This document shows, piece after piece, positions 49,930 to 58,340 of a DNA stretch of 64,000 nt (its first letter is position 1; each line of letters opens with the position of its first letter). Source of the DNA: Nitrospirota bacterium (GTDB lineage: Bacteria; Nitrospirota; 9FT-COMBO-42-15; HDB-SIOI813); assembly GCA_020851375.1 (NCBI GenBank), contig JADZCV010000047.1, positions 1-64,000 on the forward strand. The letters are read 5' to 3'. Position numbers and translations under genes: made by a program. The notes under the pieces are model-generated. The model saw nothing but the letters and a program-made list of their open reading frames with translations, was not told the DNA's origin and did no database searches.

Positions 49930-51110
49930 TAAACATCATCATGCGTCGAGGCCACCCTGTCTTTGCCGGTGCTGTACAGCCTGTAACTCCAGGATGCCTT
50001 GTCAACGGGATATTTATCATAAATGAATTTATTCCCCCATGCATCATAAATTATTCCCGCTTCAAGATAATTTTGAGAGATTAATATTGATAAAGATTCA
50101 GGAGAACTGCCATTATCCAGATAGTAGTATCCGATAGCCCTTTTAAGGTACTGCAATCTGGTCATTGTCTCCTGATTTCTGAGAAAATCAGAGACCCCTG
50201 TCAGTTCATTCATGCCGGCCATTTTACCTGCCGGAAACAACAGAAGAATAAAAATTAAAATGAAAATCAGCGCTGCGATCTGAAAGGCATACTTAAGTCT
50301 GATGCTGGATCCTGTATTCTCCTCAGGAGTTATGTCCGTAGCAGCAGGCGCATCATCCGGCGCCTGATTATTTTCATAAATAATATCCTTCTTTAAAGAT
50401 CTCTGAGTTATCAATCCTGACATCAGCAGGGTGAGCATTATCCTGTAAAGCGGAAATTGTGGCATTTCAGCCACATTGAGTATATCCGTTATGTCTCGAC
50501 TGCCGTCTACAAGGTTGTACACTGTTATTTCATCAGGGCTCAATCTGGAGAAAAGATGCTCTATTTCAGCTCCTCTCTCAGTTTGTGAAAAGACTATGTT
50601 TGATGAAGGGATCCTGGCCTCAATAAGACCCCATTCATCAACCATCCTTGAGCCTTCCATCAAAATGAAATCAGTCTGAACGGTTATTTGAAATTCCCTG
50701 TCATAATCTATCTCACAGGCGGTAAACTTATAATAACCATCCTTCCATCGTAATACATGGAATATGACTTCCATAAGTTGCTGCTGCAATGCCTCTTTTA
50801 CTTCATCTGTTGAAACATGGCCTGATGATACGAATACATTCCCTATCCTTTCCTTTGTTATTTCCTGCTTACGCAATGACTCCGCAACCTGGTCTTCAGT
50901 CATTTTACCGGCACTTTTCAGGATTTCCCCAAGGCGTTTTGTTTCTCCTCCGCTTATTGCCGTAGCAAACACAAGCTGGCCATTATCAAAATGCAGTTTT
51001 GTTGATTCACTCTTATGTGATATGGACACGACTCCGCTCTTTTTCTGCATGGATATGAGCTGCAGTATTTCAGCCAGACCAAATTCCTTTATGGAACCTT
51101 CAAGAGACAT
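49926..51110 (-). CDS. DUF4388 protein with membrane segment and GspG-like C-terminus
   Basis: The 394-residue product starts with a DUF4388 domain (about residues 1-105; MSLEGSIKEFGLAEILQLIS and KLHFDNGQLVFAT), then a second helical region, a hydrophobic membrane segment (about 272-292), and a C-terminal section ending in IIYDAWGNKFIYDKY and YRLYSTGKDRV, resembling the calcium-loop end of type II pseudopilin GspG. DUF4388 is frequent in gliding and two-component proteins of delta-like bacteria. The start overlaps the plsY-fusion stop by 11 bases. Role unknown. Confidence 0.8.
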   Translation of the reverse strand: MSLEGSIKEFGLAEILQLISMQKKSGVVSISHKSESTKLHFDNGQLVFATAISGGETKRLGEILKSAGKMTEDQVAESLRKQEITKERIGNVFVSSGHVSTDEVKEALQQQLMEVIFHVLRWKDGYYKFTACEIDYDREFQITVQTDFILMEGSRMVDEWGLIEARIPSSNIVFSQTERGAEIEHLFSRLSPDEITVYNLVDGSRDITDILNVAEMPQFPLYRIMLTLLMSGLITQRSLKKDIIYENNQAPDDAPAATDITPEENTGSSIRLKYAFQIAALIFILIFILLLFPAGKMAGMNELTGVSDFLRNQETMTRLQYLKRAIGYYYLDNGSSPESLSILISQNYLEAGIIYDAWGNKFIYDKYPVDKASWSYRLYSTGKDRVASTHDDVY

Positions 51111-53523
51111 TTCTTCCTACCATCTGGCCGGAGCGGAATGGACGGATACCGGTAAAAAACACCAGTATATAAGACAGGATGATTAATGAAATCCAGAAAA
51201 TGGATGGCCATTCAGGCATATAATATGCTGTATTCCATGTGGCGGCAGTCTGTTCAGATATTATTCCTGCAATACCTGTACTGAATATAATGCCCAAAAT
51301 TATCCCTTTGGCGGTTTGTCCTCTGATCATGTGCCACAGGCCAGGTATTATATAATAAATACGGCTGCTGCTCACAGATAGCAGGCTGCCATCCTGCTCC
51401 CTGGATTTACATGTTCTGCAAACACCTCCAAATATTTTTGAGCCTGTGCACCTCCCACATACGCTGCGGTTACAGGCAGGACAATAATACGCCATTGGCG
51501 TTCGTGGTTTGATATAAGAAATGACTGATAGTATTATGGCAATACTTATTCCCAGAAAGAGAAAGCTCTCAGCAGGTATTCTGATTAAAGCTTTAATAAT
51601 TCCGCCGGATAATGTGCCGGTATCATTTGAAGTCGTTAATGCAACACGCCACATATCACGTTTAGCAACCGGATATTCAATAACACGGTATCCGCTTCCC
51701 TTTGCCGACAACGCCGTAAAACGTTCCACATCGTGCAGGTTTATACTACTGGCTTTATTATAGGTCTCCTCTGCTTCAGCAAACAGGAGTTTTTCTCTGT
51801 AAACCTGACTTAAATTATATACTGGGATGGGAGATTCGGGAGATTCACGTATCGCATCAGTATAATATTTGATAGCCCTGTCATAGTTCCCCCTGTAGAA
51901 ACTGATGTTTCCGAGCGAATTAATTGCATTGATCCTGATAGTTCTGTTGCCTGAGTTTATTAGCCTCTCAAAGTATTGCTGCGATTCATCAATCTTTCCA
52001 TCTTTATTGGAAAGAAAGGCAATCCCAAAAGTTATATATTCGTTGCCTGGCTCAATTTTAAGATAGTCCTTTAAATGTTCAATAAGTTCCGGCTCGCCAT
52101 ATCCCCTCTCTGCGGCAACGAGTCCCCTGAGGATGATGTTGTTATGTGCAGTAGCAAAGATCGAGCTGTATTTGAGCAATACCGGTAAAAAGAGGAAAAA
52201 TATGATACAGATAACAGCAAGGATCTTGTCCTTCCTGCTCATATATATCCATGACAGGACTATCCATATCAGAACAAACCATGCAATTCCAAACAGGAAC
52301 GGGATAAAGGCAATTATAAGAAAGAAGATAATGTTAAAAGGACTGGTTACAAAGCCGGCAGTCAGCTCTTTAAATGTATGAAAAAATAACGGATATGTCC
52401 TGCAGCAAAGCGAGGCTGTAAATATAAGTATAGTAAAGCCAGCTCCAAGAAGAATTATTGAGTACAATCTCCCAGCCAGGTTAAATGATGTCCAGAAGTC
52501 TCTGAGAGTTGCCTTCACCCCTCCTGTGTATTCATAAAATATCTGTCCGATGCCGGCCCTGGACATATGGCGAAGCGCCTTTGCCGACAGGTAATAGGAT
52601 GGAGCATAATCAGGTGATAAATCCCTTGCAACAAGGCTTAGATGATAGGCATTATCAGGCGCACCCTTTTCCATAGACATATATCCCTCACGTACAAGGA
52701 GGGCGGCGATGTCATCAATTCTGTTGATCCCCAGCCTGTACCTGGTCCTGACAATTTCTTCAAGTATAAGGTCAGCAGAATTTGTATTACCGGCATTAAT
52801 TGCATTCTGTCTCTCTATCCATAATTTTTCTATCTCCACCGGGACCAGCCTGTCATGAGCGGCTTGTGTTTCTGCATAAGCCATTCCGGATGAAACAAGA
52901 ATTATTGAGGCAAGGATAACAGCCTTCATACCCCCTGCGCCGATCTTTCCCTCCGTACCTGCGACAAGTCTCCTGATGTTTTCAATATGCCTGAAATAGA
53001 GGAGGGAAGAAATAATCAGGGAGAAAATAATAAATAATATATGTCTTTCCCCTATGGCAGTGATAACCGGAAAGAAACCGAAGGATATAAGCGCGGCAAG
53101 TGATGAATACTTCCAGAGAAACATGCTTCCTATCCATATACCTATTGTGATCAGCCCTATATAGGGCCATAAGGAAAAGATGACGCCCATGCTTGTGGCT
53201 ACCCCCTTGCCCCCCCTGAATTTCAGAAATACAGTGTAGTTGTGACCAATGATGGCGGCAAAGGCAATTACAAGAGTCCACATATCAAGCCCCCATAATG
53301 ATTTGGCTATCAATACCGGTACAGCCCCTTTAAGTGCATCAAACAATAATGTCATGGCACCTCCTAATTTTCCCGTTGTCCGTAAGACATTTGTTGCCCC
53401 GATATTACCACTACCCTTTTGTCTTATGTCTCCGGCCCCCATCATCTTTGCAATAATCATCCCGAACGGTATTGAACCGGACAGGTAACCGAAGAAAATC
53501 ATGAATATCCTGAATGCAGTCAT
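51100..53523 (-). CDS. plsY: PlsY glycerol-3-phosphate acyltransferase fused to a TPR/zinc-ribbon membrane protein
   Basis: Residues 1-198 are a full PlsY, which moves acyl from acyl-phosphate to glycerol-3-phosphate: GYLSGSIPFGMIIAK, KGSGNIGATNVLRT and KFRGGKGVATSMG are the three family motifs. The frame continues without a stop into MKAVILASIILVSSGMAYAE (from residue 199), which looks like a former signal peptide. Then come helical repeats, several membrane segments, TPR units, and a cysteine cluster near residues 681-707 (CPAC, CGRC, CRTC). Total 807 residues. The start is the ATG overlapping the pgsA stop. Confidence 0.85.
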   Translation of the reverse strand: MTAFRIFMIFFGYLSGSIPFGMIIAKMMGAGDIRQKGSGNIGATNVLRTTGKLGGAMTLLFDALKGAVPVLIAKSLWGLDMWTLVIAFAAIIGHNYTVFLKFRGGKGVATSMGVIFSLWPYIGLITIGIWIGSMFLWKYSSLAALISFGFFPVITAIGERHILFIIFSLIISSLLYFRHIENIRRLVAGTEGKIGAGGMKAVILASIILVSSGMAYAETQAAHDRLVPVEIEKLWIERQNAINAGNTNSADLILEEIVRTRYRLGINRIDDIAALLVREGYMSMEKGAPDNAYHLSLVARDLSPDYAPSYYLSAKALRHMSRAGIGQIFYEYTGGVKATLRDFWTSFNLAGRLYSIILLGAGFTILIFTASLCCRTYPLFFHTFKELTAGFVTSPFNIIFFLIIAFIPFLFGIAWFVLIWIVLSWIYMSRKDKILAVICIIFFLFLPVLLKYSSIFATAHNNIILRGLVAAERGYGEPELIEHLKDYLKIEPGNEYITFGIAFLSNKDGKIDESQQYFERLINSGNRTIRINAINSLGNISFYRGNYDRAIKYYTDAIRESPESPIPVYNLSQVYREKLLFAEAEETYNKASSINLHDVERFTALSAKGSGYRVIEYPVAKRDMWRVALTTSNDTGTLSGGIIKALIRIPAESFLFLGISIAIILSVISYIKPRTPMAYYCPACNRSVCGRCTGSKIFGGVCRTCKSREQDGSLLSVSSSRIYYIIPGLWHMIRGQTAKGIILGIIFSTGIAGIISEQTAATWNTAYYMPEWPSIFWISLIILSYILVFFTGIRPFRSGQMVGRNVS

Positions 53524-54071
53524 GTTTTTTTCATGCCGGACCAGAACCTGATGGTATAGTCCCCTCCTGATATTATTGCGAGAATAGCTGAATACCAAAG
53601 CATAACAGTTCCGATTTCATGTAAATCAATGACCCTCGAACCCAGTGAAACCGGATAATCAAGTATGAGTAATACCAATGCAACAATTTGCACGAGGGTT
53701 TTCATCTTACCCATATCCCTGGCAGCAATCACCACACCAATGGATGAGGCTATAGCCCTTAGGCCAGTTATGGCGATATCTCTCCCCACAATCACTATGG
53801 CGAGCCACGACGGCACCCTGTGCAGTTCAACGAGCATGATCAGGGCTGACAATACAAGTAGCTTATCGGCAACAGGGTCAAGGAGCTTGCCTGATAACGT
53901 GACCTGTTTAAACTTCCTTGCAAGGTATCCGTCAAACCAGTCTGTTAAGGATGCGACTATAAAAATAAGTGCAGCCCAGCCGGACCTTGATGCAGATGGC
54001 ACTGCAAAGACTATTATAAAAAAAGGTATAAGTAATATTCGCAGAGTGGTAAGGATATTGGGTAGATTCAA
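53520..54071 (-). CDS. pgsA: CDP-diacylglycerol-glycerol-3-phosphate 3-phosphatidyltransferase
   Basis: PgsA makes phosphatidylglycerol phosphate in the inner membrane. The CDP-alcohol transferase motif is intact: DWFDGYLARKF followed by SGKLLDPVADK. I chose the TTG with first base 54071 (183 residues, MNLPNILTTLRI), six bases after AAAGGG. The TTG at 54077 would sit directly on that site. It shares four bases with plsY and lies just after a kdsC remnant. Confidence 0.92.
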   Translation of the reverse strand: MNLPNILTTLRILLIPFFIIVFAVPSASRSGWAALIFIVASLTDWFDGYLARKFKQVTLSGKLLDPVADKLLVLSALIMLVELHRVPSWLAIVIVGRDIAITGLRAIASSIGVVIAARDMGKMKTLVQIVALVLLILDYPVSLGSRVIDLHEIGTVMLWYSAILAIISGGDYTIRFWSGMKKT

Positions 54072-54073
54072 AT

Positions 54074-54178
54074 TCAACCCTTTGCCTTAAGTATGAAATC
54101 CGTAAGAATTCCGTCAACATGCAGCAGGAACCGGATATTACTGGCCTTTTCAGTCAGAGATTTGATATCAGGCAATTC
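54074..54178 (-). pseudogene. kdsC: Truncated kdsC remnant (KDO-8-phosphate phosphatase)
   Basis: Directly after the kdsD stop and in its frame, 34 codons read ELPDIKSLTEKASNIRFLLH then VDGILTDFILKAKG and stop. This matches the N-terminus of KdsC, whose HAD motif is LDVDGVLTDG. The nucleophilic first Asp is His here, the Gly after LTD is Phe, and the remaining roughly 130 residues are gone. No ATG opens it. I read it as the remains of kdsC after a deletion reaching pgsA. Confidence 0.72.
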
Positions 54179-55153
54179 TTAAACTAGTCCCTTCTTTAAC
54201 AGATCATGAAGGTGTATTATACCTGCTACTGTCATGTCTTTATTTACAACAGCAAGAGATGTTATTGAATGTTTTTCCATAATCTGGACTGCCGATGCTG
54301 CAAGCATGTCCTGGTGAATTATCTTCGGATCCTGAGTAGCTGCCTCAGCGGCAGTACGACTGAATATATCACTTGCGCTGACGGACTCGCGCTCGAGCAA
54401 TCTTCTTAAATCTCCATCTGTAATTATCCCAAAAAGCCTGTTATTTTCATCGAGAACAGTCGTCACCCCCAGCTTCTTTGATGTCATTTCAAAAAATACA
54501 TCCTTCATAGGTGTGTCTTTGTACACAACAGGTATATCCAAGCCTGTATGCATAATATCCTCTACACGAAGAAGAAGGCGTCTGCCAAGTGCCCCGCCAG
54601 GATGAAACAGTGCAAAATCTTCCTCCCTGAATTTGCGTTTTTCGAGAAGGGTAACTGCAAGTGCGTCTCCCATTGCAAGTGCCGCAGTGGTGCTGGCTGT
54701 AGGCACTAAATTCATAGGGCACGCCTCCTCCTTAATACTGACATCCAGGACTGCATCGCTATTTCTGGAAAGAGTGGAATCAGGTTTTCCGGTAAGGCAT
54801 ATCATACGCAGGCCCATCTTCTTAAAAACTGGCAATAAGGCGAGTATTTCGTCCGTTTCACCACTGTTTGATATGGCTATTATTATATCCTCATGAATGA
54901 TCATACCTATGTCCCCATGTATACCTTCGGCAGGATGAAGAAAAAAAGCAGGGGTGCCGGTACTTGCCAGTGTAGCAGCTATTTTTCTGCCTATCAAGCC
55001 TGACTTGCCCATTCCTGTAACAACAACCCTCCCCTTACAGTTGTAGAGAAGGGTAATTGCATCTGAAAAGCTCTGGTTCAGTCTTGCCTTTAGAGTGTCA
55101 ATGGCCTTAGCTTCAATATCGAGAACCCTGCGGCCTGTTTCTATGTCACCCAC
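54179..55153 (-). CDS. kdsD: Arabinose-5-phosphate isomerase
   Basis: KdsD converts ribulose-5-phosphate to arabinose-5-phosphate for Kdo synthesis. A SIS domain (GKSGLIGRKIAATLASTGTP and ISNSGETDEIL) is followed by two CBS domains from about residue 200. I chose the GTG with first base 55153 (324 residues) because GGAGG lies ten bases upstream; a TTG at 55180 would overlap kdsA but has no ribosome-binding site. It lies between kdsA and the kdsC remnant. Confidence 0.94.
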   Translation of the reverse strand: MGDIETGRRVLDIEAKAIDTLKARLNQSFSDAITLLYNCKGRVVVTGMGKSGLIGRKIAATLASTGTPAFFLHPAEGIHGDIGMIIHEDIIIAISNSGETDEILALLPVFKKMGLRMICLTGKPDSTLSRNSDAVLDVSIKEEACPMNLVPTASTTAALAMGDALAVTLLEKRKFREEDFALFHPGGALGRRLLLRVEDIMHTGLDIPVVYKDTPMKDVFFEMTSKKLGVTTVLDENNRLFGIITDGDLRRLLERESVSASDIFSRTAAEAATQDPKIIHQDMLAASAVQIMEKHSITSLAVVNKDMTVAGIIHLHDLLKKGLV

Positions 55154-55172
55154 TCGAATATATCCTCCATGA

Positions 55173-55991
55173 TCAGGCAAGTCTTAAAAAGTCACTAAGA
55201 CTGCAGAGGTCTTTTATCAGGGACCTGACATCTTTGAGCGGCACTTGTGTGGCGCTGTCTGACAGGGCCCTTGCAGGGTCAGGATGAACCTCCATAAAGA
55301 CGCCGTTGCATCCTGCAGCAACAGCAGCCATTGAGAGCGTTTTGATGAATTCACGCTGACCACCTGATGCCGTACCTGTACCACCCGGAAGCTGGACACT
55401 ATGAGTTGCATCAAATATAACCGGATAACCAAATGACTTCATTACAGGTATGGACCTCATGTCAACTACAAGATTATTGTATCCCAGCATAGTGCCACGC
55501 TCTGTAAGCATAATATTATTGTTTCCTGTGGATTTGATCTTGTCTACCGCGTTTTTCATATCCCACGGAGAGAGAAACTGCCCTTTTTTTATGTTTACAG
55601 CTTTTTGTGTCATGGCTGCCGATAATAAGAGATCTGTTTGCCTGCAAAGAAATGCCGGTATCTGCAATACATCAAGCACTTCTTTAACTGTGTTGACCTC
55701 TTCAGGGGTGTGTATATCAGACAAAACAGGCAGGCCCGTTTCAGTCCTGATCCTGCCAAGGATATCTATCCCCTTTTCGATTCCAGGCCCTCTGTAAGAG
55801 TTGACCGATGTCCTGTTGGCTTTATCATACGATGCCTTAAAAATGATGAAGACATCATATTCCCTGGCTATGTCCCTGAGTTCAGAGGCAATCTCAAGCG
55901 TTATGTCATAATCTTCAATTACGCATGGTCCTGCAATAAAGAAGAGCCGGCTGGTGCTGTGTATGGATTTTGTCCCTATCTGAATACTCAT
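55173..55991 (-). CDS. kdsA: 3-deoxy-8-phosphooctulonate synthase
   Basis: KdsA condenses phosphoenolpyruvate with arabinose-5-phosphate. The 272-residue barrel contains [24 protein letters not shown] and the metal/substrate region [11 protein letters not shown]. The conserved MEVHPDP loop is present. It overlaps pyrG by four bases, a widely conserved pairing. Confidence 0.97.
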
Positions 55992-57598
55992 TTAACTTTT
56001 CTGACTGCCGCTCCAATGAATGACGCAAAGAGTGGATGCGGGGCAATAGGTCTTGATTTGAATTCAGGGTGAAACTGGGTGGCCAAAAACCACGGATGAT
56101 CCTTGATCTCTACTATTTCAACGAGGTCTTTTTGGGGATAGAGGCCGCTTATGACAAGTCCGGCCTTTATAAGGTTATCCCTGTATATGTTATTAAATTC
56201 ATATCTGTGGCGGTGACGCTCACTTATCCTTGCGCTCTTATATGCTTTATAGGCGGCAGTATCCGGCATGAGGACGCATGGATATGCACCCAATCTCATC
56301 GTCCCGCCCTTATCCTTTCCCTCCTGATCAGGCATGATGTGTATTACCGGATAAGCGGTTTTCTCATCGAATTCAGTGCTGTTTGCGTCACTGAACCCTG
56401 CCATATTCCTTGCAAATTCAATAACAGCGCATTGCATCCCGAGACATATGCCGAAAAATGGTATCTTGTTTTCTCTGGAATATTTTATCGCTGCAATCTT
56501 CCCTTCAATTCCACGGTTCCCGAACCCGCCTGGAACAAGAATCCCGTCTGCATCCGAAAGAACAGCATCTGGTCCCTTTCCCTCTATCTCCTCTGCATCA
56601 AGCAGTCTCAGGCTGACGTCAACATTATTCGCAAGTCCTCCATGTATCAGTGCCTCGCAAAGGCTCTTGTAGGAATCCCTCAGATTAACGTATTTACCAA
56701 CAATGGCTATTGTGACCTTACCCGATGGATTTCTGATCTTTTTGACAATCTCAGTCCAGCGGCTGAGATCTGGTTTTCCCACATTCAGATTCAGCTTCTT
56801 GATAAGTATCCGGTCAAGTCCGTCATCATTAAGCATAATCGGGATTTCATAGATATTTTCAACGTCCCTCGCAATTATTACAGCCTCAGCCTCGACATTA
56901 CAAAAAAGGGCTATCTTCTTTTTTATCTCATCGGAGATTGGCCTGTCGGTTCTGCATACAAGGATGTCAGGCTGAATGCCTATTTCTCTCATCTTATTGA
57001 CACTATGCTGGGTGGGTTTTGTCTTGATTTCATCTGCGGCCTTGACAAATGGTATCAGAGTCAGATGCATATAGAGGGTTTTGTCGCTTCCCATGTCAAA
57101 ACGGAACTGCCTGATAGCTTCCAGGAAAGGAAGGCTTTCAATATCTCCGACAGTGCCCCCTATTTCAACTATAACGATATCCTTTTCATTGGCAGCCTCG
57201 AGTATGCACCTCTTGATTTCATCTGTTATATGAGGGACCATCTGGACTGTACCGCCAAGATATTCACCGCGGCGCTCCTTTGTGATGACGTTAAAGTATA
57301 TTTTACCTGTAGTATAATTATTTTTAGCTGATGTTGTTACAGTTGTGAATCTTTCGTAATGGCCAAGATCCAGATCCGTTTCTGTACCGTCGTCAGTAAC
57401 AAAGACCTCTCCATGCTGAAACGGGTTCATCGTGCCAGGGTCCACATTTATGTAGGGATCAAATTTCAGAAATGTAACCTTCAGGCCGTAACATTCAAGC
57501 AGGCTTCCTGCTGCTGCCGCTGCCACACCCTTGCCAAGCGATGAAACTACCCCGCCTGTGACAAAAATAAATTTGGCCTTTACAGTATCATTTCCCAT
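55988..57598 (-). CDS. pyrG: CTP synthase
   Basis: PyrG aminates UTP to CTP with glutamine; CTP is needed for CMP-Kdo made by its neighbour KdsB. The synthetase domain begins [20 protein letters not shown], and the glutaminase domain has the nucleophile Cys in FGICLGMQ. I chose the ATG with first base 57598 (536 residues), preceded by AGAGGGG at seven bases, rather than an in-frame start at 57616. Confidence 0.96.
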
Positions 57599-58340
57599 GG
57601 ATAAGCCCCTCTTCAAGTTTGTTCAGGTCTTCGGGTGTATCTATCCTGAAAGATTTATGCAGGGTTTTTTTCAACTTAATCCTGTAACCTGATTCCAATG
57701 CCCTGAGCTGTTCGAGTTTTTCGAGCTCCTCAAGACCGGAAGCAGGAAGAGAGCTGAATAAAAATAAGAAATCACGCCTGTATGCGTAGATGCCAAGGTG
57801 TTTAAAATAAGTCCCAGGCGGAAAAACTGTGTTGTCTCTCCTGTCGCGAATATGTGGAATCGGAGAGCGTGAAAAGTATAGTGCGAAGTCATTGCAATCT
57901 GTAACCACTTTTACAACATTTCTATCCATTAATTCATCCGGTGAGGTGATCTCAGATTTTAAACTGCCCATCATAATAGTGTCATCCTCTTCCATCAGAT
58001 GAATAAGCTCATCAATCATTTGAGGTCCCTGAAGGACTTCATCAGCCTGAAGATTGATTATAATTTTGTTTTCAAGATGCCTGGCTACTTCAGCACAGCG
58101 ATCAGAACCGGTCCTCAGAGCGGATGACGTCATAATCACATCTCCGCCAAATCCCCTGACCGTATCATATATCTTCTGTTCGTCTGTTGCAACAATAACA
58201 TTACCGGCATTAACTGACATCTTTGCTGCATTGTATATCCACTGAATAAGTGGCTTTGAACCGATGGAAACGAGCGCCTTTCCAGGAAATCTGGTAGAGC
58301 TGAACCGCGCAGGTATGATTACGGCTGCCTTATTATTCAT
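57588..58340 (-). CDS. kdsB: CMP-Kdo synthetase
   Basis: KdsB activates Kdo with CTP for LPS core assembly. The 250-residue nucleotidyltransferase starts [17 protein letters not shown] and includes [16 protein letters not shown], where the metal-binding Asp lies, and [12 protein letters not shown]. It overlaps pyrG by 11 bases and the heptose kinase by eight. Confidence 0.96.

Follow-up and report, generated by a model that had tools for sequence, protein, structure and literature searches.

A kdsC remnant between kdsD and pgsA points to recent loss of the Kdo-8-phosphate phosphatase gene in a Nitrospirota bacterium

The Kdo locus of a Nitrospirota bacterium (assembly GCA_020851375.1) carries, between kdsD and pgsA, a short reading frame that is, judged from its sequence and position, a genuine remnant of kdsC. 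The product of kdsC carries out one step in the synthesis of Kdo, a sugar destined for the outer membrane. It is very probable that kdsC was deleted recently in this species, that a small in-frame stub was left behind, and that Kdo synthesis continues by means of another phosphatase. The window analysed comprises 64,000 nucleotides (contig JADZCV010000047.1), and the genome is a single draft assembly of 49 contigs that is 98% complete. The features of the locus, all of them on the minus strand, are the following.

53520-54077, minus strand: pgsA-type CDP-alcohol phosphatidyltransferase (PF01066, 154.5 bits), whose start overlaps the stop of the remnant
54074-54175, minus strand: kdsC remnant as a 33-codon frame with its stop, identified by translation, profile match (E=1.1e-5) and alignment with congener kdsC genes
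54098-54105, minus strand: join left by the in-frame loss of 396 bp, TTACGGAT, placed by alignment with the congener G002
54119-54121, minus strand: His codon CAT, probably left by a 3-bp deletion, from alignment (CTTGAT in G002)
54179-55180, minus strand: intact kdsD, a KpsF/GutQ-family arabinose-5-phosphate isomerase (TIGR00393, 352 bits, cut-off 203.7)
55173-55991, minus strand: intact kdsA (TIGR01362, 378 bits, cut-off 314)
57588-58340, minus strand: intact kdsB (TIGR00466, 198.6 bits, cut-off 155.2)

The frame between kdsD and pgsA, at 54077-54178, translates as ELPDIKSLTEKASNIRFLLHVDGILTDFILKAKG, followed by a stop. It has 33 codons, from a TTG start at 54175-54173, which aligns with the kdsC start codon of G002, a GTG, to a TGA stop at 54076-54074, and is bordered by the stop codon of kdsD (54179-54181). 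Seven KdsC proteins from the taxonomic family to which the window's genome belongs were made into a profile, and the window was searched with it as 1758 stop-to-stop frames, the complete set of those with 20 residues or more; the remnant was the sole match (E=1.1e-5), the next best frame reaching an E-value of 3.8. A congener KdsC used as query against the whole genome gave two hits: one was a KdsC-like protein encoded on contig C44, and the other was the remnant itself, with 67% identity and E=0.009. The curated Pfam and NCBIfam profiles gave no match to the remnant and, since these models miss the fragment, the case for kdsC rests on the family-specific profiles together with position.

Position is informative here. 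Both congeners, G001 and G002, and five other members of the family (G004, G006, G007, G008 and G009) have a full-length kdsC directly in front of their pgsA orthologue, and these seven genes score 168-181 bits on TIGR01670, above cut-off. The pgsA orthologues of the congeners are 78-81% identical to that of the window. In G002 the kdsC stop and the pgsA start overlap by 4 bp, and in the window the stop of the remnant likewise meets the pgsA start. The remnant, as a pseudogene, combines significant similarity to KdsC with an intact orthologue at the same position in relatives, and the initial annotation, which had placed a decayed kdsC between kdsD and pgsA, is confirmed by family profile and synteny. 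Its description of kdsD, kdsA and kdsB as intact is borne out by the scores listed above, although kdsD, which passes the KpsF/GutQ model, falls below the narrower KdsD model NF008141.

Alignments of both DNA and protein resolve the remnant into the first 25-26 or so codons of kdsC joined to the last 7-8 (DFILKAKG-stop). The window DNA matches kdsC of G002 and G001 at both ends; the N-terminal part extends to GILTD, and the C-terminal part, (D)FILKAKG, is followed by the pgsA start. With KdsC (YrbI), the Kdo-8-phosphate phosphatase, a type C0 HAD described by TIGR01670, the remnant shares the N-terminal helix, the VDGILTD that follows the nucleophile and the C-terminal FILKAKG, as well as the operon place of the intact gene in relatives, and it differs in having lost 132 codons and the catalytic Asp. 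The initial annotation had matched thirty-four codons to the KdsC N-terminus and taken the rest to be deleted. The first part of this match holds, but the final 7-8 codons come from the C-terminal end of KdsC, which rules out a stub made of the N-terminus alone and makes the lesion an internal deletion rather than a truncation.

In comparison with G002, the missing internal stretch measures 396 bp, or 132 codons, a multiple of three that leaves the frame intact. Its ends are marked in G002 by TTACTGAT and TTACAGAT, where the window has the single TTACGGAT. The deletion is flanked by imperfect TTACNGAT repeats, and it was probably produced by replication slippage between these short direct repeats; because the two 8-bp copies differ in G002 and the repeat is less pronounced in other relatives, slippage is put forward as a probable mechanism and not as an observed one. 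A second lesion lies at the nucleophile, where KdsC reads LLLDVDG and the remnant LLHVDG, so that the first Asp of the catalytic DxD motif is missing. G002 has CTTGAT (Leu-Asp) at this site and the window CAT (His); the DNA alignment shows a 3-bp gap here, and in the protein alignment the stub lacks one residue at the same place. For this reason the His is best explained by the loss of 3 bp, which fused two codons into one (CTTGAT to CAT), and an Asp-to-His substitution appears less likely; the earlier statement that the nucleophile is His was right about the loss of the catalytic Asp, but fits less well as a substitution. Under either reading the alignment leaves no catalytic Asp, the later HAD-core motifs (ISGR and GDDLID) are gone with the 132 codons, and a 33-codon stub of this makeup could not function as a phosphatase.

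Substitution rates bear on the timing of the loss. Compared with G002, the remnant shows dS of 1.12 and dN of 0.14 over about 31 codons, a comparison of little statistical power, while the corresponding values are 1.12 and 0.116 for pgsA, 1.62 and 0.114 for kdsD, and 1.12-1.87 and 0.066-0.125 across the intact neighbours. On these 31 or so codons the remnant still looks like a gene on which purifying selection has acted, and such a coding-like pattern implies either that most of the divergence predates the loss or that the stub is still selected. Together with the intact kdsC of the congeners, this makes a recent loss well supported. The initial annotation had proposed recent loss with replacement; its first half stands, whereas replacement by a specific enzyme finds less support, the only KdsC-like protein left being a neuB-linked HAD that scores below the KdsC cut-off.

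Loss of the whole Kdo pathway is ruled out by the presence of kdsD, kdsA, kdsB and waaA, the last on contig C19. A second full kdsC was looked for with TIGR01670 and with the congener KdsC query, and none was found above cut-off in the 98% complete genome, a copy within the missing 2% or so being possible. Since the four pathway genes are retained and no other kdsC was found, another phosphatase presumably now serves the Kdo-8-phosphate step; the earlier assertion that another enzyme must do so is, in this light, a reasonable inference. Among the 41 genomes examined, KdsA exceeds its cut-off in 36 and KdsC likewise in 36, and KdsA occurs without an above-cut-off KdsC in two, the window's genome and G039. 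A search of G039 did not find the kdsC-linked pgsA either, and its lack of kdsC is therefore likely an assembly gap. The generic HAD sets of the window's genome and G002 are similar in an inventory of PF00702 and PF08282, so that no further phosphatase candidate stands out, and the search of the genome leaves one protein to be considered.

C44:212075-212629, minus strand: KdsC-like HAD of 185 residues, a TIGR01670 match below cut-off

That this protein took over the Kdo-8-phosphate phosphatase step and thereby permitted the loss of kdsC is a possible reading, though short of a probable one. The KdsC family model matches no protein of this genome but this one (102.6 bits on TIGR01670, against a cut-off of 106.95), the congener KdsC query finds it with 33% identity (E=1.5e-21), and it has no counterpart in the two congeners, where its best matches are their own kdsC (32-33%). 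The KdsC profiles (117.1 and 102.5 bits) also outscore the KDN-9-P phosphatase equivalog NF058599 (88.6 bits, cut-off 180). However, it remains below both curated KdsC cut-offs, that of the equivalog being 208 (for the 117.1 bits). Among solved structures the one closest to it is 3mmz, a putative HAD hydrolase, and the KdsC structures come after that. The gene adjoins neuB, with genes for a cytidylyltransferase, a transketolase, an aldehyde dehydrogenase and a short-chain dehydrogenase nearby. In the alignment its residues at the two specificity positions are Glu and Lys (SKEKN...RKL), against Arg and a residue other than Lys in KdsC; the Glu/Lys pair is a mark of KDN-9-P phosphatases and, with the adjoining neuB, may fit a nonulosonate-9-P phosphatase. 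Furthermore, G009, G025 and G030 each have a weaker second match besides their intact kdsC, which indicates that such a gene alone does not lead to kdsC loss. The C44 protein is a candidate backup phosphatase for Kdo-8-phosphate. The sugar gene cluster that holds neuB and this HAD corresponds to L069:5507-13720 (G000 contig C44).

It is unlikely that selection maintains the stub itself, whether for a small peptide or for a bridging role in translation from kdsD to pgsA. Both deletions are in frame, the start codon, the stop and the pgsA overlap are retained, and dN/dS of the stub is low; with frame and stop kept, the remnant still reads into the pgsA start. The pgsA gene is expected to be essential, and preservation of the frame may keep translation running from kdsD into pgsA. 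Against this, chance alone would put two such events in frame about 1 time in 9, a recent loss predicts the low dN/dS just as well, and some 31 comparable codons offer little statistical power. The two proposals taken together, with the stub as translational bridge and the neuB-linked HAD substituting for kdsC and working in nonulosonate as well as Kdo synthesis, have only a slim chance of both being right. An assembly artefact in an organism with an intact kdsC here is very improbable: the source is a draft in 49 contigs, but short-read assemblers do not usually collapse at an imperfect 8-bp repeat, the junction preserves the frame exactly, and the separate 3-bp lesion at the nucleophile codon is not producible by an assembly join.

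The preferred reading, a recent deletion with the stub left in frame, can be laid out as a sequence of events. The ancestor of the species would have had a normal kdsC between kdsD and pgsA, like its congeners; the 396 bp would then have been lost between the short imperfect repeats, and 3 bp separately at the catalytic Asp codon, and either deletion could have come first. As the stub retains the frame, the stop and the stretch before pgsA, translation from kdsD to pgsA could continue, and this is perhaps why preservation of the frame was favoured. The hydrolysis of Kdo-8-phosphate would fall to a different phosphatase, which may be the KdsC-like HAD encoded beside neuB or a HAD phosphatase of general function.

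Comparable situations have been described. In E. coli, KdsC is non-essential, and isozymes or nonspecific phosphatases have been proposed to act in its stead, a dedicated replacement being left open (PMC4086706), while kdsC insertions are tolerated only as long as the downstream lptC stays expressed (PMC5821084). The likeness lies in a loss that is tolerated and in a downstream essential gene that must stay expressed; the E. coli cases, however, are laboratory mutants with lptC downstream, whereas here the loss is natural and the downstream gene is pgsA. Rickettsia and other bacteria have a CMP-Kdo pathway that is otherwise complete and lacks KdsC, another phosphatase being assumed (PMC5615194); there the authors infer that the lineage never had the gene, in contrast with the recent loss and visible scar of the window's genome. 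Since E. coli can do without kdsC and Rickettsia has none, the remnant, though well preserved, represents a kind of gene loss that is already known, and it is otherwise ordinary. Its value lies in showing how a Kdo pathway that is complete in every other respect comes to lack KdsC: the deletions are small, stay in frame and leave the downstream gene unharmed. The genome, with a single KdsC-like HAD left, also offers a concrete candidate for the backup phosphatase.

Elsewhere in the window, a PlsY-type glycerol-3-phosphate acyltransferase at 51100-53598 occupies one frame with a long C-terminal TPR-repeat part (PF02660 and TPR). The same fusion, of 827 aa, is carried by the congener G002, so it is not a sequencing error.
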